Part shown: piece after piece, positions 20,542 through 33,722 of the stretch
How positions within the stretch are numbered: the stretch's first letter is position 1
Layout of the letters: each line of letters begins with the position of its first letter
Assembly: GCA_030527665.1 (NCBI GenBank)
Contig: JAUNAK010000015.1
Coordinates: 1-43,884, forward strand
DNA from: Eubacteriales bacterium
GTDB lineage: Bacteria > Bacillota > Clostridia > Lachnospirales > Lachnospiraceae
Reading direction: 5' to 3'
DNA: 43,884 nucleotides
The notes under the pieces: generated by a model
What the model was told of the DNA's origin: nothing
Databases searched by the model: none
The model's input: the letters and a program-made list of their open reading frames with translations, nothing else
Position numbers and translations under genes: made by a program

Positions 20542-20570
20542 TTGATTTTTCGGAATAAGCGCGTTATAAT
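20542..20570 (+). promoter_or_regulatory. Promoter of purF-carA-carB
   Basis: TTGATT (20542-20547), a 17-base spacer and a perfect TATAAT (20565-20570). Transcription should start near 20576, so the leader begins only about 15 bases before the AAAGGG-loop hairpin. Confidence 0.8.
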
Positions 20571-20589
20571 CCTCCACTAGAGGACACGA

Positions 20590-20634
20590 ACGCAAAGGGG
20601 CGTAATCGCGATAGGCGATTACGCCCTTTTTTTT
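20590..20634 (+). promoter_or_regulatory. purF leader attenuator: AAAGGG-hexaloop hairpin overlapping an intrinsic terminator
   Basis: Hairpin 1 is ACGC (20590-20593), loop AAAGGG, GCGT (20600-20603). It overlaps the terminator: GGGCGTAATCGC (20598-20609) pairs perfectly with GCGATTACGCCC (20615-20626) around GATAG, followed by eight T (20627-20634). Both structures use 20598-20603, so they exclude each other. The terminator ends 16 bases before the purF start. The loop obeys the A1/G4 rule of ANTAR-protein RNA targets. The same design precedes glnN and amt. Confidence 0.7.
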
Positions 20635-20650
20635 GGTGCAGGAGGCCATT

Positions 20651-22033
20651 ATGAATGTTTTAGAACTGGATAAACCCCATGAGGAATGCGGCGTTGCAGG
20701 AATCTGGGGAGGCGATCATACGGATGCGGCGAAGCTTTTGTATTATGCGCTGATTGCCTTGCAGCATCGCGGACAGGAGTCGGCGGGAATTGTAACCTGT
20801 GACCGGAAAGGTCCGTTGGGAAATATCTGTATGCACAAGGGCATGGGACTGGTCAGTGAGGTATTCGCAGCGGACAGGCTGCAGGAGCTGCGGGGAAATA
20901 TCGGTATCGGTCATGTGCGCTATTCGACGACCGGTGCCAGCTGCGAGGCGAATGCGCAGCCGGTTTTTCTGAATTATCTGAAAGGAACACTGGCGCTTGC
21001 TCATAACGGAAATATCACAAATGTAGATGCGATCCGTGACGGTCTACAGGAGAAAGGAGCATCCTTTTCCGGAACTACGGACTCGGAGGTGATCGCCTAT
21101 CGCATTGCTCTGGAGCGGCTGCAGACACCGTCTATTGAAGCGGCGGTAATGAAGACTGCAGCGGAGTTAAAGGGCGGTTATGCCCTGCTGGTTCTCAGTC
21201 CGCAAAAGCTGGTAGGTGTACGAGATCCGCTTGGACTGAAGCCGCTGTGCCTGGGACAGACGGAAGACGGCTGGATCCTGGCTTCGGAGAGTGCGGCAAT
21301 TACCGCTGTCGGCGGAACGTTCGTCCGAGATATTGAGCCGGGTGAAACAATCACGATCTCTGCGGAAGGCCTGCATTCGGATTATCGGCTGCGTCAGGAG
21401 AAGCGGGCGCATTGCGTATTTGAATACATCTATTTTGCAAGACTGGATTCCAGAATCGACGGCATTCCTGTCTATGATGCCCGAATCCGGGGAGGCAGAG
21501 CCCTGGCACGCCGGTATCCGGTGGAAGCGGATGTAGTGACAGGGGTACCGGAGTCCGGACTGACGGCAGCAGTGGGCTATGCAGAAGAAGCCGGTATTCC
21601 CTACCGTCCGGCATTTTATAAGAACAGCTATGTAGGACGCACCTTTATCAAGCCGTCGCAGGAGGAGCGTGCCTCGGCCGTTCATATGAAACTCAGTCTT
21701 CTGGACAGTGTGGTAAAGGGAAAACGGGTCGTTCTGATCGATGATTCGATCGTTCGGGGAACAACGATCGCCAATCTGATCAAGATGATGCGAAAGGCAG
21801 GGGCATTGGAGATTCATGTACGGATCAGTTCCCCGCCGTTTCTCTATCCCTGCTATTACGGCACGGATGTTCCGGACAACAGCAGTCTGATTGCAAATGC
21901 CATGTCTACAGAGGAGATTCGAAAGAGCATCGGTGCGGATTCTCTGGAATATATGCACCTGGAGGATCTGGACGAGATGACGGAAGGACTTCCTCTCTGC
22001 AAGGCATGTTTTGACAATAAGTATCCGGTATGA
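20651..22033 (+). CDS. purF: Amidophosphoribosyltransferase
   Basis: A 460-residue PurF catalysing the first committed step of purine synthesis: PRPP plus glutamine to phosphoribosylamine. The start at 20651 is fixed by AGGAGG at 20639-20644. A propeptide of 12 residues precedes Cys13 (EECGVAGIWG), the N-terminal nucleophile after processing. The class II glutaminase domain has GHVRYSTTGAS and LAHNGNITN. The phosphoribosyltransferase part has VVLIDDSIVRGTT, the PRPP-binding loop. Cysteines in the C-terminal third (YPCYYG, LCKACFD) fit the iron-sulfur-containing Bacillus-type enzyme. It heads a transcription unit with carA and carB behind an attenuator, linking purine and pyrimidine synthesis to one glutamine-type signal. 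Confidence 0.97.
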   Translation: MNVLELDKPHEECGVAGIWGGDHTDAAKLLYYALIALQHRGQESAGIVTCDRKGPLGNICMHKGMGLVSEVFAADRLQELRGNIGIGHVRYSTTGASCEANAQPVFLNYLKGTLALAHNGNITNVDAIRDGLQEKGASFSGTTDSEVIAYRIALERLQTPSIEAAVMKTAAELKGGYALLVLSPQKLVGVRDPLGLKPLCLGQTEDGWILASESAAITAVGGTFVRDIEPGETITISAEGLHSDYRLRQEKRAHCVFEYIYFARLDSRIDGIPVYDARIRGGRALARRYPVEADVVTGVPESGLTAAVGYAEEAGIPYRPAFYKNSYVGRTFIKPSQEERASAVHMKLSLLDSVVKGKRVVLIDDSIVRGTTIANLIKMMRKAGALEIHVRISSPPFLYPCYYGTDVPDNSSLIANAMSTEEIRKSIGADSLEYMHLEDLDEMTEGLPLCKACFDNKYPV

Positions 22034-22040
22034 GAATGAT

Positions 22041-22200
22041 CTGCGGCCTCTGTCGGCAGAAGATGGATGTTCCGCTCAGGCGTGAAATCAGATCCTGCTG
22101 AGACGAAGTGCAATAATTATCTGGTGGAATCTCCGGTTGAGATGAGAAACTTTGCAATTCTGGTAAGCAGAGACCTGAAGAGGGATGCTGCAGAGGGCAG
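22041..22200 (+). other. purF-carA intergenic region with a possible closed RNA domain
   Basis: The 197-base spacer has no open frame of note. CTGC...CCTCTG (22041-22052) can pair with CAGAGGGCAG (22191-22200), leaving a 2-base bulge and closing a 138-base domain. Within it ATCTC-CGGTT-GAGAT (22129-22143), CTCAG/CTGAG (22075-22079 with 22098-22102) and TGCAA/TTGCA can form. It matches no riboswitch class I recognise. The structure is weak and unproven. Confidence 0.3.
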
Positions 22201-22233
22201 ATAACTTTCGGAATCAGGTGAAAGGAAAAGATG

Positions 22234-23367
22234 ATGGATAAAAAATACAGAAAGATCGTACTGGAGGATGGAACGGTATTTACCGGCGTTGCTTTCGGTG
22301 CGGAGACAGAAAAAAAGGTGGAGATCGTTTTTAATACATCCATGGTGGGCTATCAGGAGATCCTTTCGGATCCCTCATATACCGGTCAGGCAGTCGTTAT
22401 GACCTATCCGATGATTGGAAACTACGGTATGTGCGAGGAGGATTATGAAACAGAACGTCCGTCGATCTCCGGTATGATCGTAAGGGAATACTGCGATGAA
22501 CCCTCGAATTTCCGCTGCAGCAAAACACTGAACGAAGTGATGCGGGAATATGATATTGCCGGTGTTGCGGGAATCGATACACGGAAACTGGCCAGACACA
22601 TTCGGGATTACGGAAGCTGCCGGGCATGCATTGCCGATGCGGAGAGGGACACGGAGCTGATTCTCCGCGAACTGCGGGACTGGTATCTGGAGCAGGATTT
22701 TGTTTCAAAGGTAAGTACAAAAACACCATATGCATTTGAGGAGGAACCACTGGGAAACGGTCCGCTTGCGGCAGACGGTCAGCCCTATCATGTGGCAGCA
22801 CTGGACTGCGGCATCAAGAAGAATATTCTTCGGGATATGCGGCGGAAAGGGCTGCAGGTAACTGTATTGCCATGGAATACACCCGCAGAACAGATCCTGG
22901 AACTGGATCCGGACGGAATCTTCATTTCCAACGGACCGGGAGATCCGACAGATGTTCCGGAAACCATTGCGGCCGTTCGGCAGCTGATCGGAAAGAGACC
23001 GATCTTCGGTATCTGTCTGGGACATCAGATCCTTTCTCTTGCATACGGAGCAAAGACCTATAAGCTGAAATTCGGTCACCGAGGCGGCAATCATCCGGTA
23101 AAAGATCTGCAGACCGGAAAACTGGAAATTACTTCCCAGAATCATTCCTATGCCGTAGATGCGGACAGCATAAAAGAAACGCCGCTGGAAGTGACTCATA
23201 TCAATCTTCTGGATAATACGGTAGAGGGCGTCCGGGCAGAGAGGGATCATGCTTTTTCGGTACAGTACCATCCGGAAAGTGCGCCGGGACCGCAGGACAG
23301 CGGTTATCTCTTTGATGCGTTTATTCGTGACATGCATAAGTATGAGGAGGAGAAGACAAATGCCTAA
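22234..23367 (+). CDS. carA: Carbamoyl-phosphate synthase small (glutaminase) subunit
   Basis: A 377-residue CarA, which hydrolyses glutamine and channels ammonia to CarB for carbamoyl phosphate (arginine and pyrimidine synthesis). The N-terminal small-subunit domain ([30 protein letters not shown]) is followed by a class I glutaminase domain with the nucleophile Cys261 in GICLGHQ and the HPES motif near the end. Two ATGs lie in tandem at 22231 and 22234. I chose the second because AAGGA (22222-22226) is then 7 bases away. The 3' end overlaps carB by 8 bases. It is downstream of purF without a visible terminator, so it is probably in the same operon. Confidence 0.97.
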
Positions 23368-26300
23368 GAGAACAGATATCAAAAAAGTATTGGTAATCGG
23401 TTCAGGACCGATCGTCATCGGACAGGCGGCAGAGTTCGACTATGCCGGAACCCAGGCCTGTCTGGCACTCCGGGAAGAAGGCTATGAGGTTATTCTCTGC
23501 AACTCCAATCCGGCAACCATCATGACGGATCAGACGATTGCGGATAAAGTGTATATGGAACCGCTGACACTGGAATACATGGCGAGAATCATTCGGAGTG
23601 AACGTCCGGATGCCATTCTGCCTGGAATCGGCGGACAGACCGGACTGAATCTGGCCATGCAGCTGGAGCGAAAAGGCATTCTCCGGGAATGTCAGACCGA
23701 GCTTCTGGGAACAAGGATCGAGAGTATCGAACGTGCGGAAGACAGAGAGCTGTTCAAGGAACTGTGCCTGGAACTGGGAGAACCGGTTCTTCCTTCGGAG
23801 ATCGCAAACAGCATAGAGGAAGGTCTGGAAGCGGCTGAGAAGATCGGATATCCGCTGGTCGTTCGTCCTGCGTTTACATTGGGCGGCACCGGCGGCGGTT
23901 TTGCGGAGAACGAAGAGGAGTTTCTGCAGATCATGAAAAATGCCATGGCACTTTCACCGGTGCACCAGGTACTGGTGGAGAAAAGTGTCCGCGGATATAA
24001 GGAAATCGAATACGAGGTAATGCGTGATGCCAACGATACAGCCATCACCATCTGCAATATGGAGAATCTGGATCCGGTCGGTATTCATACCGGAGATTCC
24101 ATCGTTGTCTGTCCTTCCCAGACACTGACCAACAAGGAATACCACATGCTGCGTGACAGTGCGTTGAAGATCATTCGTGCACTGCAGATTGAAGGCGGCT
24201 GTAATGTACAGTTTGCGCTGGATCCGAAGTCCTTTCAGTATTATCTGATCGAGGTAAATCCGCGTGTATCCCGTTCTTCCGCACTGGCTTCCAAAGCCAG
24301 CGGTTATCCGATCGCAAGGGTATCCGCGAAGATCAGCGTGGGCATGCATCTGGATGAGATACAGATCGCCAATACCCCGGCATCCTTTGAGCCTGCACTG
24401 GATTATGTGGTGTGCAAAATGCCGCGTTTCCCCTTTGACAAATTCAATGATGCAAATAATCATCTCGGTACACAGATGAAGGCAACCGGAGAGGTCATGA
24501 GTGTGGGACGGACACTGGAGGAGAGTCTTCTGAAGTCGATCCGTTCTCTGGAGATCGGCCTCTGGCATCTGCATCACATAAAATTTGATGAGATGTCCAC
24601 AGAAGAAATGCTGGCATATATTCCGGAGGGAACCGACGACCGGATCTACGCGCTTGCGGAGCTTCTGCGCAGAGACATCAAACCGGAAAAACTGTCTGCG
24701 GTCACCGGTATTGATCTGTTCTTTATCCATAAACTGCTGCACATCGTACAGATGGAACATACGCTGCAGGAAAATCCGGACAGCAGAGAGATTCTTTTCC
24801 GGGCTAAGAAGATGGGATTTTCCGATCGGGAGATTGCCTGTCTGTGGAAGCACAGTCAGAGGGAGATCTTTGAGCTTCGCAGGCAGTGGAATATTTTCCC
24901 TGTCTACAAGATGATCGATACCTGTGCTTCGGAGTTTGAGAGCTATATTCCGTATTTCTATTCCACCTATGAAGAAGAGAATGAATCCGTTATCTCTGAC
25001 AAGAAGAAAATTATTGTTCTTGGATCCGGACCCATTCGTATCGGCCAGGGTGTGGAGTTTGACTATTCCACCGTGCATGCGGTACAGACGATCAAAGAAG
25101 CCGGCTATGAAGCCATCATCATCAACAACAATCCGGAGACGGTATCGACGGATTATACGACCTCGGATAAGCTGTATTTTGAGCCGCTCTGCGTGGAGGA
25201 TGTCATCAATATCGTAGAGATGGAAAAACCGGAGGGTGTCATTGCCATTCTCGGCGGGCAGACGGCCATCAATCTGGCTGAGCCGCTGAAGGAGTATGGT
25301 GTACGCATTATCGGAACCGACTGCGCCGCCATTGAACGTGCAGAAAACAGAGACTCCTTCGAACATCTGCTGCAGGATCTGCATATTCCGCAGCCGAAGG
25401 GACAGGCCGTCACCAGCATTGAGGCCGGTGTACAGGCAGCCAAAGAGATCGGTTACCCGGTTCTGGTTCGTCCCAGCTTTGTCCTGGGCGGTAGAGCCAT
25501 GCAGATCGTATCCAAGGAGAAGGATCTGCGCCACTATCTGCAGACGGCGGTAGAAATCGATGTGGACAAGCCGGTGCTTGTGGATAAATATATCCGCGGA
25601 AAAGAAGTGGAAGTGGATGCGATCTGTGACGGACAGGATGTATTTGTGCCGGGAATCATGGAGCTGGTTGAGCGTACCGGTGTCCATTCCGGAGACTCCA
25701 TCAGTGTCTACCCGACATACAGTATCTCAGACAAGGTAAAGGGGACGATCCTGCAGTACACGAAAAAGCTGGGACTGGGAATCGGCATTGTCGGCCTTTA
25801 CAATATCCAGTTTATCGTAGATCCGGAGGATAATGTTTATATCATTGAAGTCAATCCCCGGTCTTCCAGAACCGTACCGTTCCTGTCCAAAGCCACAGGC
25901 TATTCCCTGGCTGATATCGCCACACTGGCAATTCTGGGCGTATCCCTGAAGGAACAGGGAATCTTTCGGCTGTATCCGGAGGAAAGAGAACGCTGGTGTG
26001 TAAAAGCCCCTGCCTTCTCCTTTGCAAAGCTGAAAGGCATGGATGCCTATCTGTCACCGGAGATGAAATCCACCGGCGAGGCCATCGGCTACGACAATAC
26101 CCTGCACAGAGCAATGTACAAGGCATTGCTGGCATCCGGCGTAAAACTGCAGAATTACGGTACGGTGATCGTAACACTGGCGGATGAGGATAAGGAGGAA
26201 GCGCTGCCGCTTGTCAGACGCTTCTATGATATGGGCTTCAATATCGAGGCTACCACCATGACCTGTGAATTCCTGAAGGAACATGGGGTAAAGACAAGGC

Positions 26301-26536
26301 TGCGTCATAAACTGAGTGAAGGAAGCGAAGAGGTGCTGGATTCCATACGTGCGGGATATGTCAGCTATGTGATCAACACACGTGCGATCCTGTCCGGTGT
26401 ACACTATGAGGACGGGGCTGCGATCCGCCGCTGTGCCATCGAGAATAATGTCACCATGTTCACATCCCTGGACACCGTAAAGGTATTCCTGGATGTCCTG
26501 GAAGAACTGACGATTAAGGTAGCACCGATCTTTTAA
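23360..26536 (+). CDS. carB: Carbamoyl-phosphate synthase large subunit
   Basis: A 1058-residue CarB, normal for the family. It has two homologous ATP-grasp halves: the first begins [20 protein letters not shown] (residue 9 on) and makes carboxyphosphate and carbamate; the second begins [20 protein letters not shown] (about residue 550) and phosphorylates carbamate. Each half has its glycine-rich ATP loop ([24 protein letters not shown]) and an EVNPRxSR motif. The C-terminal 130 residues are the MGS-like allosteric domain. The start at 23360 overlaps the carA stop (8 bases), with GGAGGAG just upstream inside carA. In-frame codons further upstream have no ribosome-binding site. It forms the synthase complex with CarA. 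Confidence 0.97.
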
Positions 26537-26699
26537 ATACAAACACAATTTTTTTAATACATATACACGGATTCGGATGGGGAGAAGTCGGATTTAGCTG
26601 GCATCTCCCCGTTCGCGTCCAACTGCTCAGAATTCGACTCGAAAAACGCAAAGTTAACTCAAATTTTCCGAATTTACAACGTTTTTTCTTACTTTACGA

Positions 26700-26705
26700 T
26701 ATAAT
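26700..26705 (+). promoter_or_regulatory. Probable -10 box of the polyphosphate:AMP phosphotransferase gene
   Basis: A perfect TATAAT in the context ACGATATAATATAAAA, about 100 bases before the gene. No good -35 lies at 17 bases; TTTACA (26673-26678) is too far at 21. The 269-base spacer 26537-26805 otherwise holds no gene, and I see no strong terminator after carB. Confidence 0.5.
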
Positions 26706-26805
26706 ATAAAACATGGGATAGGAAAGTGATTTCATTTTTCGTGTGCTTATTCAGAGGAATGAAGGAACGTAAAAAGCAAAATGGATTTCGGGGAAAGGGG
26801 TTCTT

Positions 26806-28275
26806 ATGGGAAAAGAGAAAAAGAGTGAGATCGAGCGTCTGAATCAGGATGAGTTGAAGAAGATTTTGAAAGAAACACGTCAGAAGCTTGCTTCGCAGCA
26901 GCAGTTGATCAAGGAGAAAAAACTTCCGGTCATTGTTCTGATTGAAGGATGGAGTGCTGCCGGAAAAGGAACACTGATCAGTTATCTGATCCGGGATCTG
27001 GATCCGCGTTTTTTCCAGGTTGTGCCGATGAAAGCACCGACGGAAGAAGAGCTGCGCAAGCCGTTTTTGTGCCGTCATATGGAGAAGATACCTGAAACGG
27101 GAAAATTTTCATTTCTGGATTCCGGCTGGATCGAAGAGACTGTCTTTGATGCCGTTGACGGACGGCTGAATGAGAAGGAACTGCAGCATCGTCTGGATGA
27201 AATTAATGTTTTTGAGAGGCAGCTTGTCGACAATGGCTATCTGGTACTCAAGATTTTTGTCCATGTGACAGAGGAAGAGCAGAGAGCGCGCATCAAGAGG
27301 CTCAGCAGCGACAAAGATACGCAGTGGCGCGTGAATACACGGGATCTGGATGAACTGAAACATCGCAAAAAATACGCAAAGATCTTTGACCGGTGTATCA
27401 GCGAGACGAATTCGCAGAAAGCACCCTGGCATGTGGTGGACGGCATGCAGAAAACAGTGATCGAACTGCAGGTGTGCAAATTGCTGATCGAGGGAATTGA
27501 GTCTGCAATTGCCCGCAATCAGATGCCGGCGGAAATTCCTGTTAATACATTCCCCATGAAAAAAATGCCGAAGCTTGCGGAGGTCGATCTGAACAAGTCG
27601 GTGACGCGCGAGGAGTATGAAGCGGAGCTGAAGCTTGCACAGAAAAAACTGAAGAAGCTCCACAACAAGCTTTATCGAAAAGGGATTCCGGTGATCATTG
27701 CCTATGAAGGATGGGATGCGGCCGGAAAAGGCGGCAATATCAAACGTATGACTAGTGCACTCGATGCAAGAGGATTCACCGTGCATCCGATCGCTTCACC
27801 GGATTCCTATGAGAAAAACAGGATGTTTCTCTGGCGCTTCTGGAAACGTCTTCCGAAGACAGGACACATTGCGATCTTTGACCGAACCTGGTACGGCAGA
27901 GTCATGGTGGAGCGTCTCGAGGGTTTCTGTTCCGAGAACGACTGGCAGAGAGCTTTTAACGAGATGAATGAATTTGAGAAACAGCTTAGCGACTGGGGCG
28001 CTGTCGTGATCAAGTTCTGGATCCATATTGACAAGGAAACGCAGCTGGAGCGGTTTAACGAGCGGCAGAATACCCCGGAGAAGCGCTGGAAGATCACGGA
28101 GGAAGACTGGCGCAATCGCGAAAAATGGGATCTGTACGAGCTGGCTGTCGATGAAATGATCGAGAAGACAAGTACGGAATATGCACCGTGGCATATCATA
28201 TCCTCCAATGACAAACTGTACGCAAGACTGCAGACGATCCGGATCGTGATCGATGCCATCGAGAAAGCTCTTTGA
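26806..28275 (+). CDS. pap: Polyphosphate:AMP phosphotransferase (tandem PPK2 domains)
   Basis: A 489-residue class II PPK2 made of two fused kinase domains, as in bacterial PAP enzymes that make ADP from AMP and polyphosphate. The N-terminal domain has Walker A GWSAAGKGT (48-56) but FLDSGW in place of the usual DRxWY region. The C-terminal domain has Walker A GWDAAGKGG (302-310) and the complete FDRTWYGRVMVERLEG (from Asp359), and is probably the catalytic one. In known two-domain enzymes the C-terminal half carries activity, and the residues here agree. GGGGAAAGGGG serves as ribosome-binding site. It is monocistronic and not obviously tied to the nitrogen genes beyond adenylate balance. Confidence 0.93.
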   Translation: MGKEKKSEIERLNQDELKKILKETRQKLASQQQLIKEKKLPVIVLIEGWSAAGKGTLISYLIRDLDPRFFQVVPMKAPTEEELRKPFLCRHMEKIPETGKFSFLDSGWIEETVFDAVDGRLNEKELQHRLDEINVFERQLVDNGYLVLKIFVHVTEEEQRARIKRLSSDKDTQWRVNTRDLDELKHRKKYAKIFDRCISETNSQKAPWHVVDGMQKTVIELQVCKLLIEGIESAIARNQMPAEIPVNTFPMKKMPKLAEVDLNKSVTREEYEAELKLAQKKLKKLHNKLYRKGIPVIIAYEGWDAAGKGGNIKRMTSALDARGFTVHPIASPDSYEKNRMFLWRFWKRLPKTGHIAIFDRTWYGRVMVERLEGFCSENDWQRAFNEMNEFEKQLSDWGAVVIKFWIHIDKETQLERFNERQNTPEKRWKITEEDWRNREKWDLYELAVDEMIEKTSTEYAPWHIISSNDKLYARLQTIRIVIDAIEKAL

Positions 28276-28354
28276 GACAGGGACGATCTTCCGAGCGAAA
28301 GAGTGCCCAATGCTTAAAAGGAAGCTTCGTGTTGTGAATGTAGTTGGATAGTGT

Positions 28355-28382
28355 TTGAAACATGGGATAAAAATGGTATAAT
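28355..28382 (+). promoter_or_regulatory. Promoter of the toxin-antitoxin pair
   Basis: TTGAAA (28355-28360), a 16-base spacer and TATAAT (28377-28382), about 30 bases before the antitoxin start. Confidence 0.7.
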
Positions 28383-28412
28383 TGCGGTATAGATGCAAGG
28401 AGGTACTATGAT

Positions 28413-28673
28413 ATGCCTAAAATAATACCAATTAAAGAATTGAAAAATACATCCGCTATTTCTGAAATGTGTCATGAATCGAATGAGCCTGTTTTTGTAA
28501 CAAAAAATGGTTACGGAGATATGGTTTTTATGAGTATGGAGACGTATGAGGCCAGAGAAAAAAAATATCAGATCTATCATGACATAGAAGTTTCAGAACA
28601 GCAGATTGCCCAGGGGCAAGTGAAGGATGCAAAAATGGCACTCTCTGAGATGAGGTCAAAATATGGCTTATAA
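28413..28673 (+). CDS. Type II antitoxin, Phd/YefM family
   Basis: An 86-residue antitoxin. The N-terminal half (IIPIKELKNTSAISEMCHES, then PVFVTKNGYGDMVFMSMETY) is the Phd/YefM DNA-binding fold, which normally represses its own promoter. The C-terminal half is charged and helical (EVSEQQIAQGQVKDAKMALSEM), as expected for the toxin-neutralising tail. AAGGAGG is at 28397-28403 and favours the ATG at 28413 over the one at 28408. It overlaps the toxin gene by 11 bases. It probably controls the promoter at 28355-28382. Confidence 0.9.
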   Translation: MPKIIPIKELKNTSAISEMCHESNEPVFVTKNGYGDMVFMSMETYEAREKKYQIYHDIEVSEQQIAQGQVKDAKMALSEMRSKYGL

Positions 28674-28974
28674 TCTGATTATTTCGGAAAAGGCAAATCA
28701 GCATATTGAACAAATTGTAGAGTATATTATGTTTCATCTGCAGAATCCTGAGGCAGCAAAATCTGTGCTGGATGATTTGGAACATACATATCATTTGCTT
28801 GAACAGAATGCAGAATCTTTTCCGTACAGTGAAGATCCCTATCTTGCAGCCAAAGGTTATAGGAAGCTGTCGCTGCAAAAACATGCATATGTAATTCTGT
28901 ATAAAGTTGCTGATAATACAGTGCAGATCTCCGGCGTATTTCATACGCTTCAGGATTATCGTATAAAACTATAG
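28663..28974 (+). CDS. Type II toxin, RelE/ParE superfamily
   Basis: A 103-residue RelE/ParE-fold protein. The N-terminal helices (SEKANQHIEQIVEYIMFHLQ, then AAKSVLDDLEHTYHLLEQ) and the C-terminal beta strands (KGYRKLSLQKHAYVILYKV, VQISGVFHTLQDYRIKL) fit the fold. The pattern Y-R-K-L...Y-V-I-L-Y-K-V is closer to ParE/RelE-type toxins that either cleave mRNA on the ribosome or inhibit gyrase; the target is not predictable here. The start lies inside the antitoxin gene (11-base overlap), implying coupled translation. The gene pair is intact. Confidence 0.88.
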   Translation: MAYNLIISEKANQHIEQIVEYIMFHLQNPEAAKSVLDDLEHTYHLLEQNAESFPYSEDPYLAAKGYRKLSLQKHAYVILYKVADNTVQISGVFHTLQDYRIKL

Positions 28975-29032
28975 TGAGTATTGAATAGCAGGCACTACTT
29001 AAAAATAACTACAGAAAAATCGAAAAAGTCCG

Positions 29033-29061
29033 TTGACAAATGAACTTCACAAGTTTATAGT
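29033..29061 (+). promoter_or_regulatory. Promoter of glnN
   Basis: A perfect TTGACA (29033-29038), a 17-base spacer and TATAGT (29056-29061). The expected start site near 29067 is only a few bases before the AAAGGC-loop hairpin. Confidence 0.85.
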
Positions 29062-29070
29062 ACTCGACAT

Positions 29071-29115
29071 AAGCAAAGGCGCTTTGGATCAGATATCCAA
29101 GGCGCCTCTTTTTTT
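29071..29115 (+). promoter_or_regulatory. glnN leader attenuator: AAAGGC-hexaloop hairpin overlapping an intrinsic terminator
   Basis: Hairpin AAGC (29071-29074), loop AAAGGC, GCTT (29081-29084). It overlaps the terminator arm: AGGCGCTTTGGAT (29077-29089) pairs with ATCCAAGGCGCCT (29095-29107, one T-G wobble), followed by a T run to 29115. The two are mutually exclusive. TAAGCAAA (29070-29077) can also pair with TTTGCTTA (29113-29120). The loop and design match the purF and amt leaders, while the stem bases covary. Confidence 0.7.
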
Positions 29116-29186
29116 GCTTAATAATCTTTGACAGTATTCAAGCAATCCGGATCCAATGCGTAGAATATTACATCGTGAATCTCAAT

Positions 29187-29230
29187 CGGGGATTTAGAAC
29201 TCCATCTATCAGATGATGCAGGTCTCCCCG
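29187..29230 (+). other. Distal glnN leader hairpin domain
   Basis: CGGGGA (29187-29192) pairs with TCCCCG (29225-29230), enclosing CATCT-ATC-AGATG (29203-29215). It lies after the attenuator and 29 bases before the start. I do not recognise a known RNA class. Confidence 0.3.
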
Positions 29231-29259
29231 AGGGAGCTGAACAACAGGAGGAAAGAATT

Positions 29260-31353
29260 ATGACAGTACCTGAAATGTACGGCAGCCTGGTATTCAATGA
29301 CAAGATCATGAGAGAGAAACTTCCGAAAGACGTTTACAAAGCTCTTCGCAAAACCATTGACCGGAATACACACCTGGAGCTGGATGTGGCAAACGCAGTT
29401 GCGGTAGCCATGAAGGAATGGGCCGTGGAACACGGAGCAACCCATTTTACCCACTGGTTCCAGCCGATGACGGGATTTACCGCTGAGAAGCATGACAGCT
29501 TCATTTCACCGACCGGCAGCGGCGAGGTGATCATGGAGTTCTCCGGCAAGGAGCTGGTAAAGGGAGAACCGGATGCATCCAGTTTTCCGTCCGGCGGTCT
29601 CAGAGCTACCTTCGAGGCAAGAGGATATACCGCATGGGATCCTACTTCACCGGCATTCATCAAGGACGGTACTCTTTGCATACCGACAGCCTTCTGCTCC
29701 TACAGCGGCGAGGCGCTGGATAAGAAAACACCGCTGCTTCGTTCCATGGAAGCGTTGAATAAAGAGGCAGTCAAAGTACTGAAGCTTCTGGGCAATACGG
29801 ATGTTACAAGCGTAACAACGACCGTCGGACCGGAGCAGGAATATTTCCTGATCAACAAAGAAGATTATAAGAAGAGACAGGATCTGATCTTCACAGGAAG
29901 AACACTTTTGGGTGCAATGCCTCCGAAGGGACAGGAGATGGAAGATCATTACTTCGGAACACTTCGTCCGAGAGTAGCGGCTTATATGCATGATCTGGAT
30001 GAGGAACTCTGGAAGCTGGGCATTCCGGCCAAGACCAAACATAACGAAGTTGCTCCCTGCCAGCATGAGCTTGCACCGATCTTTGATACAACAAATGTTG
30101 CTGTTGATCACAACCAGCTGACAATGGAAATGATGAAAAAGGTTGCTGACAAGCATGGCTTCGTATGTCTGCTTCATGAGAAACCGTTCGACGGTATCAA
30201 CGGTTCCGGCAAGCATAACAACTGGTCCATGACGACCGATACCGGTCTGAATCTTCTGGATCCGGGAAAAACACCGGCAGAAAACATTCAGTTCCTGGTA
30301 TTCCTTACAGCAGTCATTGCAGCCGTAGATGATTATGCGGATCTGATGCGTCTGTCCGTAGCGACTGCAGGCAATGACCATCGTCTGGGAGCAAACGAAG
30401 CCCCGCCGGCAATCATCTCTATCTTCCTTGGTGATGAGCTTTCAGCCATCATGGATGCCATCGAGAAAGACGAGTTCTTCTCTGCACAGAAGAAAGTGGC
30501 AATGGAGACCGGCGCAATCGTACTTCCGCATTTCTTCAAGGATACGACCGACAGAAACCGTACTTCACCGTTTGCTTTCACCGGAAACAAATTTGAATTC
30601 CGTTCATTGGGATCCTCCCTTTCGGTTGCAGGCCCGAACGTTATTCTGAATACGGCAGTAGCCGAGAAACTTTCCAAAGTATACGAGGATCTGAAAGATG
30701 TTGCTCCGGAGGATCTGAACGAAGCCGTTCATGCACGTATCAAGGAAGCGGTCATTCGTCATAAAAAGGTCATTTTCAACGGCAACGGCTATACCGATGA
30801 ATGGGTAGAAGAAGCAGAGAAGAGAGGTCTGTGCAACTACAAGACCACACCGGATGTCCTTCCGGTATTCATTGCACCGAAGAACATCGAGCTGTTCACG
30901 AAGCACCATATTCTGACAGAGACAGAGATCAATTCCCGTTACGAGATTCTGCTTGAGAACTACTGCAAGAGTCTGCATATCGAAGCTAGAACACTGGCAG
31001 ATATGCTGGGACAGCAGTTCCTTCCGGCTGTGGAGAAGACCATCGATCGTTATGTGACCCTTGCATTGAAGAAGAAACAGCTGTGTGAGACGATCACAAG
31101 CAAGACTGAGAAAAGGTACATCGAAGATCTGTCGCAGGCCTATGATACTCTGTATGATCTGCTGCAGAAACTGACAGCAGATACCGAGCAGGCAGAATCG
31201 ATCGAAGATGTACTTGCGCAGGCAAAATATTATCAGGAAACGATCCTGGCAGAGATGGCAGAGATCCGTACAGCAGCGGACGAAGCCGAGAGAAAAATTC
31301 CGGAAGATCTTCTTCCGTATCCGACCTATTCACAGATGCTGTTTTACGTATAA
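29260..31353 (+). CDS. glnN: Glutamine synthetase type III
   Basis: A 697-residue GSIII, far longer than GSI (about 470) and typical of Bacteroidetes, cyanobacteria and clostridia. It makes glutamine from glutamate, ammonia and ATP. Signatures are the GSIII N-terminus (YGSLVFNDKIMREKLPKDVY), ATHFTHWFQPMTG, GPEQEYFLINKEDY (a metal/glutamate site), NEVAPCQHELAPIF, GSGKHNNWS and RTSPFAFTGNKFEFRSLG, followed by a long helical C-terminal region. AGGAGG lies 10 bases before the ATG. It is transcribed alone behind its own promoter and attenuator, next to amt, so ammonium import and assimilation are side by side. It supplies the amide used by the purF, carA, asnB, pyrG and gltB products. Confidence 0.97.
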   Translation: MTVPEMYGSLVFNDKIMREKLPKDVYKALRKTIDRNTHLELDVANAVAVAMKEWAVEHGATHFTHWFQPMTGFTAEKHDSFISPTGSGEVIMEFSGKELVKGEPDASSFPSGGLRATFEARGYTAWDPTSPAFIKDGTLCIPTAFCSYSGEALDKKTPLLRSMEALNKEAVKVLKLLGNTDVTSVTTTVGPEQEYFLINKEDYKKRQDLIFTGRTLLGAMPPKGQEMEDHYFGTLRPRVAAYMHDLDEELWKLGIPAKTKHNEVAPCQHELAPIFDTTNVAVDHNQLTMEMMKKVADKHGFVCLLHEKPFDGINGSGKHNNWSMTTDTGLNLLDPGKTPAENIQFLVFLTAVIAAVDDYADLMRLSVATAGNDHRLGANEAPPAIISIFLGDELSAIMDAIEKDEFFSAQKKVAMETGAIVLPHFFKDTTDRNRTSPFAFTGNKFEFRSLGSSLSVAGPNVILNTAVAEKLSKVYEDLKDVAPEDLNEAVHARIKEAVIRHKKVIFNGNGYTDEWVEEAEKRGLCNYKTTPDVLPVFIAPKNIELFTKHHILTETEINSRYEILLENYCKSLHIEARTLADMLGQQFLPAVEKTIDRYVTLALKKKQLCETITSKTEKRYIEDLSQAYDTLYDLLQKLTADTEQAESIEDVLAQAKYYQETILAEMAEIRTAADEAERKIPEDLLPYPTYSQMLFYV

Positions 31354-31433
31354 AAAAACGTAAAAACTTCCATTCTGTGTACATATATTCTGTCTTGCAG
31401 CATGATGTATGTACAGACACAGTTCGGAATTTT

Positions 31434-31439
31434 TATAGA
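31434..31439 (+). promoter_or_regulatory. Probable -10 box of amt
   Basis: TATAGA (31434-31439), with no good -35 at the usual distance (TACAGA at 31412-31417 is weak). The start site would be near 31446, immediately before the attenuator hairpin. Confidence 0.45.
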
Positions 31440-31446
31440 TAACTGT

Positions 31447-31487
31447 AAACGCAAAGGCGCGTTTCCCAGACGGGGAACGTGCCTTTT
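31447..31487 (+). promoter_or_regulatory. amt leader attenuator: AAAGGC-hexaloop hairpin overlapping an intrinsic terminator
   Basis: A perfect 6-bp hairpin, AAACGC (31447-31452), loop AAAGGC, GCGTTT (31459-31464). It overlaps the terminator arm GGCGCGTTTCCC (31456-31467), which pairs with GGGGAACGTGCC (31472-31483, with wobbles), followed by TTTT. CGCAAAGG (31450-31457) is also fully complementary to CCTTTGCG (31490-31497), giving a third alternative. Confidence 0.7.
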
Positions 31488-31489
31488 CT

Positions 31490-31544
31490 CCTTTGCGGAA
31501 GTCTTACCTGAGATCCGCAAAGCGAGGTAAGCAGCAATGCTTAC
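31490..31544 (+). other. amt leader: pseudoknot or competing pairings before the start codon
   Basis: CTTTGCGGA (31491-31499) pairs perfectly with TCCGCAAAG (31514-31522). CTTACCT (31503-31509) pairs perfectly with AGGTAAG (31525-31531). The order A-B-A'-B' is an H-type pseudoknot if simultaneous. GTAAGC (31527-31532) can instead pair with GCTTAC (31539-31544). The structure ends 7 bases before AGGAGG. Confidence 0.5.
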
Positions 31545-31564: not shown

Positions 31565-33328
31565 ATGAGCACTGAAATCTTAAGCGCGATCAACGGAGAA
31601 GTCTTTGGGGTCTGGTTCCTCATAGGAGCAGCCCTTGTATTCTGGATGCAGGCCGGTTTTGCAATGGTAGAAGCCGGATTTACCAGAGCCAAGAATACAG
31701 GAAATATTCTGATGAAGAACCTTATGGATTTCTGTATCGGTACCGTAACTTTTATCTTGATTGGCTTCAGCCTTCTCCTCGGAGAAGATATCGTCGGCCT
31801 GATCGGTAAACCCGGATTTGATATTTTTACCAACTATGCAGGCTTTGACTGGTCTAACTTTGTATTCAACCTTGTGTTCTGTGCAACCACCGCAACGATC
31901 GTTTCCGGTGCGATGGCAGAAAGAACCAAGTTTCTTTCCTATTGTATATATTCCGCAATTATTTCCGCTCTGATCTATCCGATCGAAGCACACTGGATCT
32001 GGGGCGGCGGCTGGCTTTCACAGATCGGCTTCCATGATTTTGCAGGTTCCTGTGCCATCCATATGGTCGGTGGTATCTCCGCCATCATCGGAGCAAAGAT
32101 TCTTGGACCGCGAATCGGAAAATTTGAATTTGATGAAAATAATAAACTGAAAAAAGTAAATGCCTTCCCGGGACATAACCTCCCGATCGGCGCACTTGGT
32201 GTATTTATTCTCTGGCTCGGCTGGTACGGATTCAACGGTGCCGCATGTACAAGTGTTGAGCAGCTTGGTTCCGTATTCCTGACAACGACTGTAGCACCGG
32301 CAATTGCAACTGTCGTTTGTATGGTATTCACCTGGGTAAAATACGGAAAACCCGATGTGTCCATGAGTTTGAATGCATCCCTTGCCGGACTGGTAGCAAT
32401 CACAGCTCCCTGTGATGTAACAGATGCCTTCGGTGCCATCGTTATCGGTGCCGTAGCAGGACTTCTGGTCTGCTTCGGCGTATGGTTCCTGGATTATAAG
32501 CTTTGCATCGACGATCCGGTAGGTGCGGTAGCTGTTCATTGTCTCAACGGTATCTGGGGAACACTTGCAGTAGGTCTCTTTGCAACCAATACCGCACCGG
32601 GATATTCCATCGCAGACGGAAACGGCAATGAGCTGGTCGGTCTGTTTTACGGCGGCGGCTTCAAGCTGCTGGGTCTTCAGTTTGCTGGTTTCGCAGCAGT
32701 AGCAGCCTGGACAGCAGTTACCATTACTCTTGCTTTCCTGTTTATTAAAGCTGTAATCGGTCTTCGTGTTACAGAAGAAGAGGAGATCATCGGTCTGGAT
32801 GCCACCGAGCACGGCCTGCCAAGTGCATATGCCGGCTTCAGTATCATGGATATCTCTAACACAATGACCATGGAGATCAATGAGAACACAAGCCTTGGTT
32901 CCGACTATTACGATACGGCAAGTGATGCGAAAAAAGCAGCAGCCGTACCGGTTGTGGACATGCTTCCGAGCAGCGGCATCAGCAAGGTGGTTATCATCGC
33001 AAAACTGTCCCGTTACGATGTACTGAAAAAAGCCATCAACAAACTTGGTGTAACAGGTATGACCGTAACACAGGTAATGGGATGCGGCGTACAGAAAGGT
33101 GCCGGCGAGAGATATCGTGGTGTTGAGATGGATATGACCCTTCAGCCGAAAGTAAAGGTAGAAGTAGTCGTAAGCAAGATCCCGGTAGCATCTGTCATTG
33201 AGGCAGCCAAGAAGGCACTCTATACCGGACATATCGGCGACGGCAAGATCTTCGTATATCCGGTAGAGAAGGTTGTGAAGATCCGTACCGGAGAGGAGGA
33301 CTTCGACGCACTGCAGGATGTGGAGTAA
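31565..33328 (+). CDS. amt: Ammonium transporter fused to a C-terminal PII signalling domain
   Basis: A 587-residue fusion. Residues 1 to about 410 form the Amt channel with 11 expected helices: FWMQAGFAMVEAGFTRAKNT, the conserved GAMAERTKFLSY, HWIWGGGWLS and DFAGSCAIHMVGG, and VHCLNGIWGTLAVGLF. After a linker, residues from about 470 are a PII (GlnK/GlnB) domain: SKVVIIAKLSRYDVLKKAI, GCGVQKGAGERYRGVEMD with the T-loop tyrosine Tyr517, and TGHIGDGKIFVYPVEKVVKI. In most bacteria GlnK is a separate protein that plugs Amt. Covalent fusion supplies the regulator in fixed ratio. The start at 31565 follows AGGAGG; codons further upstream lie in the structured leader. Confidence 0.95.
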   Translation: MSTEILSAINGEVFGVWFLIGAALVFWMQAGFAMVEAGFTRAKNTGNILMKNLMDFCIGTVTFILIGFSLLLGEDIVGLIGKPGFDIFTNYAGFDWSNFVFNLVFCATTATIVSGAMAERTKFLSYCIYSAIISALIYPIEAHWIWGGGWLSQIGFHDFAGSCAIHMVGGISAIIGAKILGPRIGKFEFDENNKLKKVNAFPGHNLPIGALGVFILWLGWYGFNGAACTSVEQLGSVFLTTTVAPAIATVVCMVFTWVKYGKPDVSMSLNASLAGLVAITAPCDVTDAFGAIVIGAVAGLLVCFGVWFLDYKLCIDDPVGAVAVHCLNGIWGTLAVGLFATNTAPGYSIADGNGNELVGLFYGGGFKLLGLQFAGFAAVAAWTAVTITLAFLFIKAVIGLRVTEEEEIIGLDATEHGLPSAYAGFSIMDISNTMTMEINENTSLGSDYYDTASDAKKAAAVPVVDMLPSSGISKVVIIAKLSRYDVLKKAINKLGVTGMTVTQVMGCGVQKGAGERYRGVEMDMTLQPKVKVEVVVSKIPVASVIEAAKKALYTGHIGDGKIFVYPVEKVVKIRTGEEDFDALQDVE

Positions 33329-33500: not shown

Positions 33501-33722
33501 GCGATTCAGTGGGAGTGTCCTGCGCACGAAGCCTGCCGAGGCTTGTGTTACGAGATTTGCACCAGGCAGCTGCCACCGAGCGCACTGTTTGAGTGCGTTC
33601 AATATGAAGGTATTTTAGCAGTAATTATTACGCACGAGTTTGTGCGAATGGCAGCGAATAAGCCGTGCGAATCTCGTAACAAACGAGGCTAAGCGAGGAG
33701 CAGGATACTCCCACTGAATCGC
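33501..33722. mobile_element. 222-bp palindromic MITE-like element
   Basis: The ends are long imperfect inverted repeats: GCGATTCAGTGGGAGT (33501-33516) is matched perfectly by ACTCCCACTGAATCGC (33707-33722). Similarity continues inward through TCCTGC and TGTTACGAGATT (33546-33557) against AATCTCGTAACA (33670-33681). Inside are two small hairpins (CGCACT/AGTGCG at 33581-33597, CGCAC/GTGCG at 33631-33646) and the palindrome GGCAGCTGCC (33565-33574). It has no open frame. It fills most of the 491-base gap 33329-33819 before asnB. Confidence 0.6.

Follow-up and report, generated by a model that had tools for sequence, protein, structure and literature searches.

Single-hexaloop attenuators upstream of purF, glnN and amt as probable NitR antitermination sites in a Lachnospiraceae genome

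The 43,884 nt stretch of DNA analysed here (which we refer to as the window) comes from a Eubacteriales bacterium of the family Lachnospiraceae (assembly GCA_030527665.1, contig JAUNAK010000015.1, positions 1 to 43,884) and contains three leaders, upstream of purF, glnN and amt, which share a short hairpin with a six-base loop (hexaloop). These leaders are probably antitermination sites of NitR, an ANTAR-family protein encoded after glnA, and would represent a variant of the known ANTAR target that has one hexaloop, near the transcript start, in place of two hairpins. All three hairpins were found on the forward strand by direct reading and by script: arms ACGC/GCGT around the loop AAAGGG in the purF leader (20590..20603), AAGC/GCTT around AAAGGC in the glnN leader (29071..29084) and AAACGC/GCGTTT around AAAGGC in the amt leader (31447..31464). 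In each leader the loop and 3′ arm of the hairpin are part of the 5′ arm of a forward-strand intrinsic terminator, at 20594..20634 (purF) and 29077..29115 (glnN), both with a U tract, and at 31453..31490 (amt). The terminator stems have 16, 13 and 15 pairs in purF, glnN and amt, with fold z-scores of -6.8, -6.2 and -4.6. The lone hairpins fold at -3.5, -2.0 and -5.4 kcal/mol, compared to -27.4, -21.6 and -25.5 kcal/mol for the fold from the hairpin start to the U tract; the terminator is far stronger than the hairpin alone, hence the default should be termination. The same competition is seen over 43 sites, with means of -3.6 kcal/mol for the hairpin and -23.7 kcal/mol for the fold from the loop to the U tract. 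A strict scan (loop AANGNN, stem of at least 4 pairs, terminator of at least 12 pairs) returned three sites in the window, whereas 60 first-order Markov shuffles of it yielded none, so that the shared hairpin described in the original prediction is upheld. GCAAAGGNGC occurs 30 times in the window's own genome, yet on inspection only these three copies have a stem of at least 4 pairs lying on a terminator; a fourth own-genome site near a contig end (C35, L012/L228), with a 3-bp stem on a terminator, is not claimed.

We propose that each leader acts as a transcription attenuator which is off by default. The transcript would start a few nucleotides before a weak hairpin of 4–6 bp with an AANG hexaloop; if nothing held the hairpin, its loop and 3′ arm would join the stronger terminator and RNA polymerase would stop. 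The ANTAR protein of the NitR type encoded after glnA would, we infer, bind the hexaloop on the nascent RNA, and the bound hairpin would occupy the 5′ part of the terminator, allowing read-through into purF-carAB, glnN or amt. The likely signal is nitrogen or glutamine shortage, which may reach NitR by protein contact, plausibly from GlnA, rather than by phosphorylation. The dual-hexaloop ANTAR target RNAs (EutV/eut, NasR/nasF, AmiR/amiE) are alike in several respects: a hexaloop with G4 and mostly A1 on a short stem, an intrinsic terminator that overlaps the loop and 3′ arm, an ANTAR protein in the genome and nitrogen genes as targets. They differ in that here there is one hairpin, close to the predicted transcript start.

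Conservation of the hairpin was assessed in 61 genomes: the window's own and those of 60 relatives, which share its genus, family or order. Matches to amt were obtained in 35 of the 61 and to glnN in 50, and 30 loci of each were examined, own included. In a leader test which allowed loops of 4 to 9 and imposed no loop sequence, 41 strong terminators were found upstream of amt or glnN in 37 of the 60 loci. An alternative hexaloop hairpin of at least 4 pairs was present at 31 of the 41, and 25 of these 31 had A1 and G4, whilst control terminators carried a hexaloop hairpin in 7 of 29 cases on the same strand elsewhere and in 4 of 29 on the opposite strand (one of the four with A1/G4). In an alignment of 26 leaders, positions C6, A7, A8, G10 and G13 are invariant, giving a C-G closing pair and an AANG loop, a loop form partly imposed by detection. 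The stem of these leaders covaries: 79.7% of cells are paired, against 31.8–49.0% for slid partners, and cells with changes on both sides number 35, where shuffles give 13.9 (scores of 0.607 and 0.211), although detection in this set needed 3 pairs and the inner pairs are hence selected. In 80 distinct covariance model hits, which were not chosen for the hairpin stem and whose model holds no such pairs, the values were 79.1% vs. 25.1–51.1% of cells paired and 96 vs. 42.2 double-changed cells (score 0.474 vs. 0.208); this set has 63 hand-picked loci, includes antisense hits and some of the leaders used to build the model, and the model favours AGC/GCT. Five of the 6 stem pairs show a double change in both sets, a count no higher than that of shuffles. 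The claim that base pairs change together while the loop stays therefore holds in relatives as well as in the window. The rule of A1 and G4, also taken from the original prediction, stands for G4 and for the window's loops, but A1 is not absolute: loop position 1 is G (GAAGGC) or, in one case, T (TAAGGC) at five loci (L074, L076, L148, L162 and L167), all of which keep G4, and a G-start loop could close to a tetraloop AAGG. Separately, one amt locus (L037, minus strand, G028) has two hexaloop attenuators in tandem upstream of amt, at ~1356 and ~1426.

The covariation bears directly on whether the element is instead a repressor-binding DNA operator close to +1, with the terminator incidental, a reading we consider highly improbable. 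The arms do form an inverted repeat near the predicted start site, as an operator might, but an operator would keep its arms and leave its spacer free, whereas here the arms vary together and the six-base spacer is conserved; on these grounds it was rejected. G-U pairs, present in the hairpin stems of both covariation sets, also argue for RNA, whilst the terminator overlap was part of the site search and is not independent evidence on this point.

To define the genes downstream of the element, we used a covariance model of the terminator form (R1) made from the leaders of 17 relatives, with the window's own sites left out. R1 recovers all three sites in the window, at 29069 (43.8 bits), 31447 (32.2 bits) and 20588 (25.2 bits), and the glnN site is its best match in the own genome. 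In whole-genome searches, 48 of the 61 genomes had matches at E ≤ 0.05. Of 150 listed rows, 106 were analysed; the other 44 comprised antisense duplicates, weaker matches and the own amt site. As six of those analysed had E above 0.003 (including L225 and L226, at amt or glnN loci) whereas other weak matches had been left aside, a recount was made on the 100 hits with E ≤ 0.003, one strand each and own amt omitted. A strict hairpin (stem of at least 4 pairs, loop AANGNN) was found in 58 of the 100, and 39 of these 58 lie upstream of core nitrogen or glutamine genes: glnN (15), amt (9), gltB (6), pyrG (3), purF (2), asnB (2), carA (1) and glnA (1), where one glnN site from a truncated hit (L126, idx 2) was counted as strict by its sequence and its adjacency to the glnN match of G036. 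The survey of relatives suggested by the original prediction thus places most strict sites before such genes. Core-gene placement fell to 5 of 20 among intermediate hits and 1 of 22 among hits with a stem of 2 pairs or fewer, the single case (L167) having a TAAGGC loop by eye.

When the proteins of 20 further downstream genes were scanned with Pfam, strict sites proved to precede genes for a GlmS-like protein (L197), MurT (L200) and a GltB-type amidotransferase (L177). Strict sites also precede class III aminotransferases (L165, L220) and a branched-chain amino-acid ABC ATPase (L143), as well as genes without a clear nitrogen role, including a Na+/H+ antiporter, a chemotaxis protein, a cytidylate kinase, a LysR regulator, a PPDK-domain protein, a glycosyltransferase and others. 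As a further observation, two strict sites (L194 and L199, by Pfam) and one with a 3-bp stem (L296, by its similar start) lie before circularly permuted ATP-grasp genes. At 29 new loci from a class-wide search, 25 have a stem of at least 4 pairs, with 12 preceding glnN, 5 amt and 7 AsnA. Across related Clostridia, the element is therefore found upstream of amt, glnN, gltB, purF, asnB, pyrG, carA, glnA and asnA.

This gene content, together with the covariation, makes it most unlikely that the sites are a small-molecule riboswitch or ordinary A-tract terminators. AAAGG arises by chance in A-tract terminators, and 22 of the 100 model hits have a stem of 2 pairs or fewer, as chance would produce; only one of those 22 precedes a core gene, however, and chance A-tract terminators were rejected. 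The riboswitch was rejected as Rfam gave no match at gathering score anywhere in the window, and two stretches searched at E 1 gave weak, unrelated matches only; the ~16 nt of the hairpin are also small for a known ligand pocket.

The own genome encodes one ANTAR match above the cut-off (C72:10855-11004, 64.6 bits), along with two weak ones, and its gene lies directly 3′ of a type I glnA, so the regulator sought in the original prediction has a single clear candidate. ANTAR genes occur in 45 of the 61 genomes; of 30 loci inspected, 27 have glnA next to ANTAR. Among the best 80 of 579 loci, which are mostly from Lachnospiraceae (e.g. Lachnoclostridium phytofermentans, Hungatella, Lacrimispora and Roseburia), every one has a same-strand glnA no more than 400 nt upstream of the ANTAR gene, the query itself having been built from glnA-adjoining ANTAR proteins. 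At least 250 nt before glnA are available at 75 of these 80 loci, and 18 have a model hit with a stem of at least 4 pairs before glnA; a model hit before glnA is present in L. phytofermentans at L254:8537. The sites and the protein occur together: with the 100-hit set, a strict core-gene site was found in 24 of the 45 ANTAR genomes and in 1 of the 16 others (G013, 77% complete). Among 196 Clostridia genomes, an ANTAR match (E 1e-7) was present in 39 of 42 with a strong model hit (E ≤ 1e-5), compared to 60 of 154 others (p ~1e-10, not corrected for shared ancestry), with the hairpin checked individually in the 42 genomes only at a subset of loci. For 15 of the 49 strong sites, from 14 genomes, an ANTAR gene is found on the same contig at a distance of up to 25 kb.

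The solved structures nearest to the own protein are a putative antiterminator (1s8n), EutV (6wsh), NasR and AmiR. EutV RNA contacts E160, K149 and M172 align with E149, K138 and M161 of the own protein (alignment by eye; chain numbers are 2 higher). EutV has a receiver phospho-acceptor Asp, which the own NitR lacks (IICGY); by eye this residue is absent from 26 of 29 readable proteins, own included, and kept in three (L099, L100 and L109), with L101 excluded as it was displayed in a wrong frame. A Pfam search of the own NitR at E 0.001 gave no receiver match.

Predicted promoter positions suggest that most sites have one hairpin. The transcript starts considered here are predictions, with transcription taken to begin 6–8 nt past the -10 element. 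In the window, on the forward strand, a promoter-like TTGATT-17-TATAAT (20542..20570, 10 of 12 consensus positions) precedes purF-carA-carB and ends 19 nt upstream of the hairpin, and a TTGACA-17-TATAGT (29033..29061, 11 of 12 positions) precedes glnN and ends 9 nt upstream; before amt, TATAGA (31434..31439), a possible -10 element seen by eye and absent from the promoter scan, ends 7 nt before the hairpin. The original prediction held that the predicted starts leave no room for a first hairpin, which is the case for glnN and amt (amt by eye) but not quite for purF, where ~12 nt remain, the bare minimum for a linker-less 3-bp hexaloop. Two tandem hairpins, P1 and P2, mark membership of the known target class, and the window sites do not show them. 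Over 109 sites (including 25 class-wide sites and three with a stem of at least 4 pairs in L241, L252 and L298, 27–33 nt from a promoter), a near-consensus promoter was predicted near 66, compared to 6 of 225 control windows. The -10 element ends a median of 11 nt before the 4-bp core (interquartile range 9–12.75), and within 15 nt in 54 of the 109. A P1-like hairpin was found within 35 nt upstream in 13 of the 109 vs. 8.7 ± 2.9 in shuffles, with 24 of 300 shuffles reaching 13. In a smaller set of 82 sites without those of L241, L252 and L298, 43 have a promoter (control 1 of 138) and 10 a P1-like hairpin (7.1 ± 2.5 in shuffles). Most sites have no first hairpin, though a few may, and the one-hairpin variant raised in the original prediction gains support. 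In 12 glnA leaders, drawn from 20 other ANTAR loci, two hexaloops were found in 2 (L343 and L348, genomes of another Clostridia family), one AANG hairpin near the gene in 8 and none in 2, in a listing that needs at least 4 pairs and which a 3-pair first hairpin would escape. One- and two-hairpin designs thus coexist in Clostridia.

Several results nevertheless weigh against single-hexaloop NitR sites. The own glnA-nitR leader shows no hexaloop site by script scan, and within the window neither do asnB, pyrG and gltB, by script scan and model search. Of the own-genome R1 matches listed, which include those at glnN and amt, none is at purF, whose site scores below the antisense strand of the glnN hairpin (26.4 bits). 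With relaxed detection (3 pairs required), ANTAR-bearing genomes show the hairpin in only 15 of 29 amt leaders and 16 of 26 glnN leaders (own included), and genomes without ANTAR in 0 of 1 amt and 1 of 4 glnN leaders, the latter with a 3-bp stem. Some of the contrary evidence would suit a dual-hairpin ANTAR target, with the real promoters further upstream and a degenerate first hairpin present, which we judge unlikely. The targets known so far carry a pair of hairpins, both of which EutV requires in vivo; the glnA leaders of L343 and L348 show that two hexaloops do occur in Clostridia, and the AT-rich glnA leaders L339, L345 and L346 have promoters ~50–75 nt upstream by eye, which leave room for a first hairpin. 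Further, 43 of the 109 sites have no strong promoter close by, 12 of the 66 promoters lie over 15 nt from the hairpin and the P1-like count slightly exceeds the shuffle mean. However, 96 of the 109 sites have no P1-like hairpin, about half have their promoter too close, as given above, and the window's own glnN and amt leaders have no room; a hidden first hairpin was rejected because it is not clearly enriched.

The other contrary evidence concerns the protein, and would fit another RNA-binding antiterminator, or glutamine synthetase itself, as the binder, with the ANTAR co-occurrence an indirect result of both being in nitrogen control; we give this a slightly lower chance than a second hairpin. 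Three genomes (G072, G099 and G150) have strong hits and no ANTAR match at E 1e-7, and in G099 (96% complete) the site, L326, precedes glnN, has a strict hairpin and follows a consensus promoter, an exception which would reflect an assembly gap or another binding protein. EutV residues N173, R175 and R177, of which the triple mutant loses RNA binding (PMC8934654), align with D, G and G in the own protein, and R142, K143 and Y164 are replaced by Q, E and H (AmiR also has H at the last). Against a different binder stand the loop rule shared with known ANTAR RNAs, the co-occurrence in 39 of 42 genomes with site and ANTAR gene often close together, and the NitR of Clostridium saccharobutylicum. 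The gene of that protein, like the own ANTAR gene, is linked to glnA. A review (PMC6316151, with Stutz 2007 as the primary paper) describes the protein as an ANTAR-family regulator which induces GS/GOGAT genes by antitermination under nitrogen limitation. The system described here differs in that its RNA sites are defined, have one hairpin and are also present before purF-carAB, pyrG, asnB and asnA.

ANTAR control of nitrogen genes is therefore known, and the one-hairpin, start-proximal form is apparently new. Ramesh 2012 predicted ANTAR nitrogen regulons of Desulfotomaculum and others with a two-hairpin motif, the targets including ammonium transporters, P-II, glutamine synthases and glutamate synthases (PMC3369931); these genes are similar to those found here, but that search motif could not list one-hairpin sites. 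Walshe 2022 describes one hexaloop as the minimal ANTAR binding unit and two hairpins as needed for EutV antitermination, the first recruiting the protein before the second forms, and asks for bioinformatics on single hexaloops (PMC8934654). Its authors expected single sites where the transcription time limit is absent, whereas here single sites lie on attenuators. Dual stem-loops are required in PMC8164766, and among the top matches of our searches of open-licence PMC texts no paper dealt with one-hairpin ANTAR attenuators.

The genes downstream of the three leaders are all on the forward strand. The purF gene (20651..22033, TIGR01134) is followed by carA (22231-23367, TIGR01368) and carB (23360-26536, NF003671); glnN (29260..31353) encodes a type III glutamine synthetase (PF12437 GSIII_N, 2.3e-83); and amt (31565..33328) encodes an ammonium transporter fused in frame to a P-II domain at its C terminus (PF00909 and PF00543). 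The window also contains a PPK2-type gene, asnB, pyrG and gltB-gltD. Two small overlapping open-reading frames of 86 and 103 aa at 28413-28974 resemble an antitoxin-toxin pair by eye. Between amt and asnB, 33501-33722 holds a nested inverted repeat with 23-nt arms that are 96% and 17-nt arms that are 94% complementary, which may be what is left of a mobile element or may form an RNA structure.

It is possible, though we hold it only tentatively, that these sites form part of a Clostridia-wide regulon in which a phosphorylation-dead ANTAR protein, signalled by its neighbour GlnA and not by a kinase, antiterminates through one start-proximal hexaloop. If the proposed mechanism is true, ANTAR antitermination can do without a first, recruiting hairpin, and this natural set of single-hexaloop attenuators makes the need for that hairpin directly testable. 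The leaders would then constitute a candidate nitrogen-control circuit of Lachnospiraceae and other Clostridia for ammonium uptake and glutamine-using enzymes, in which a single response would set ammonium assimilation together with the amidotransferases that spend glutamine (PurF, CarA, PyrG, AsnB and GlmS).

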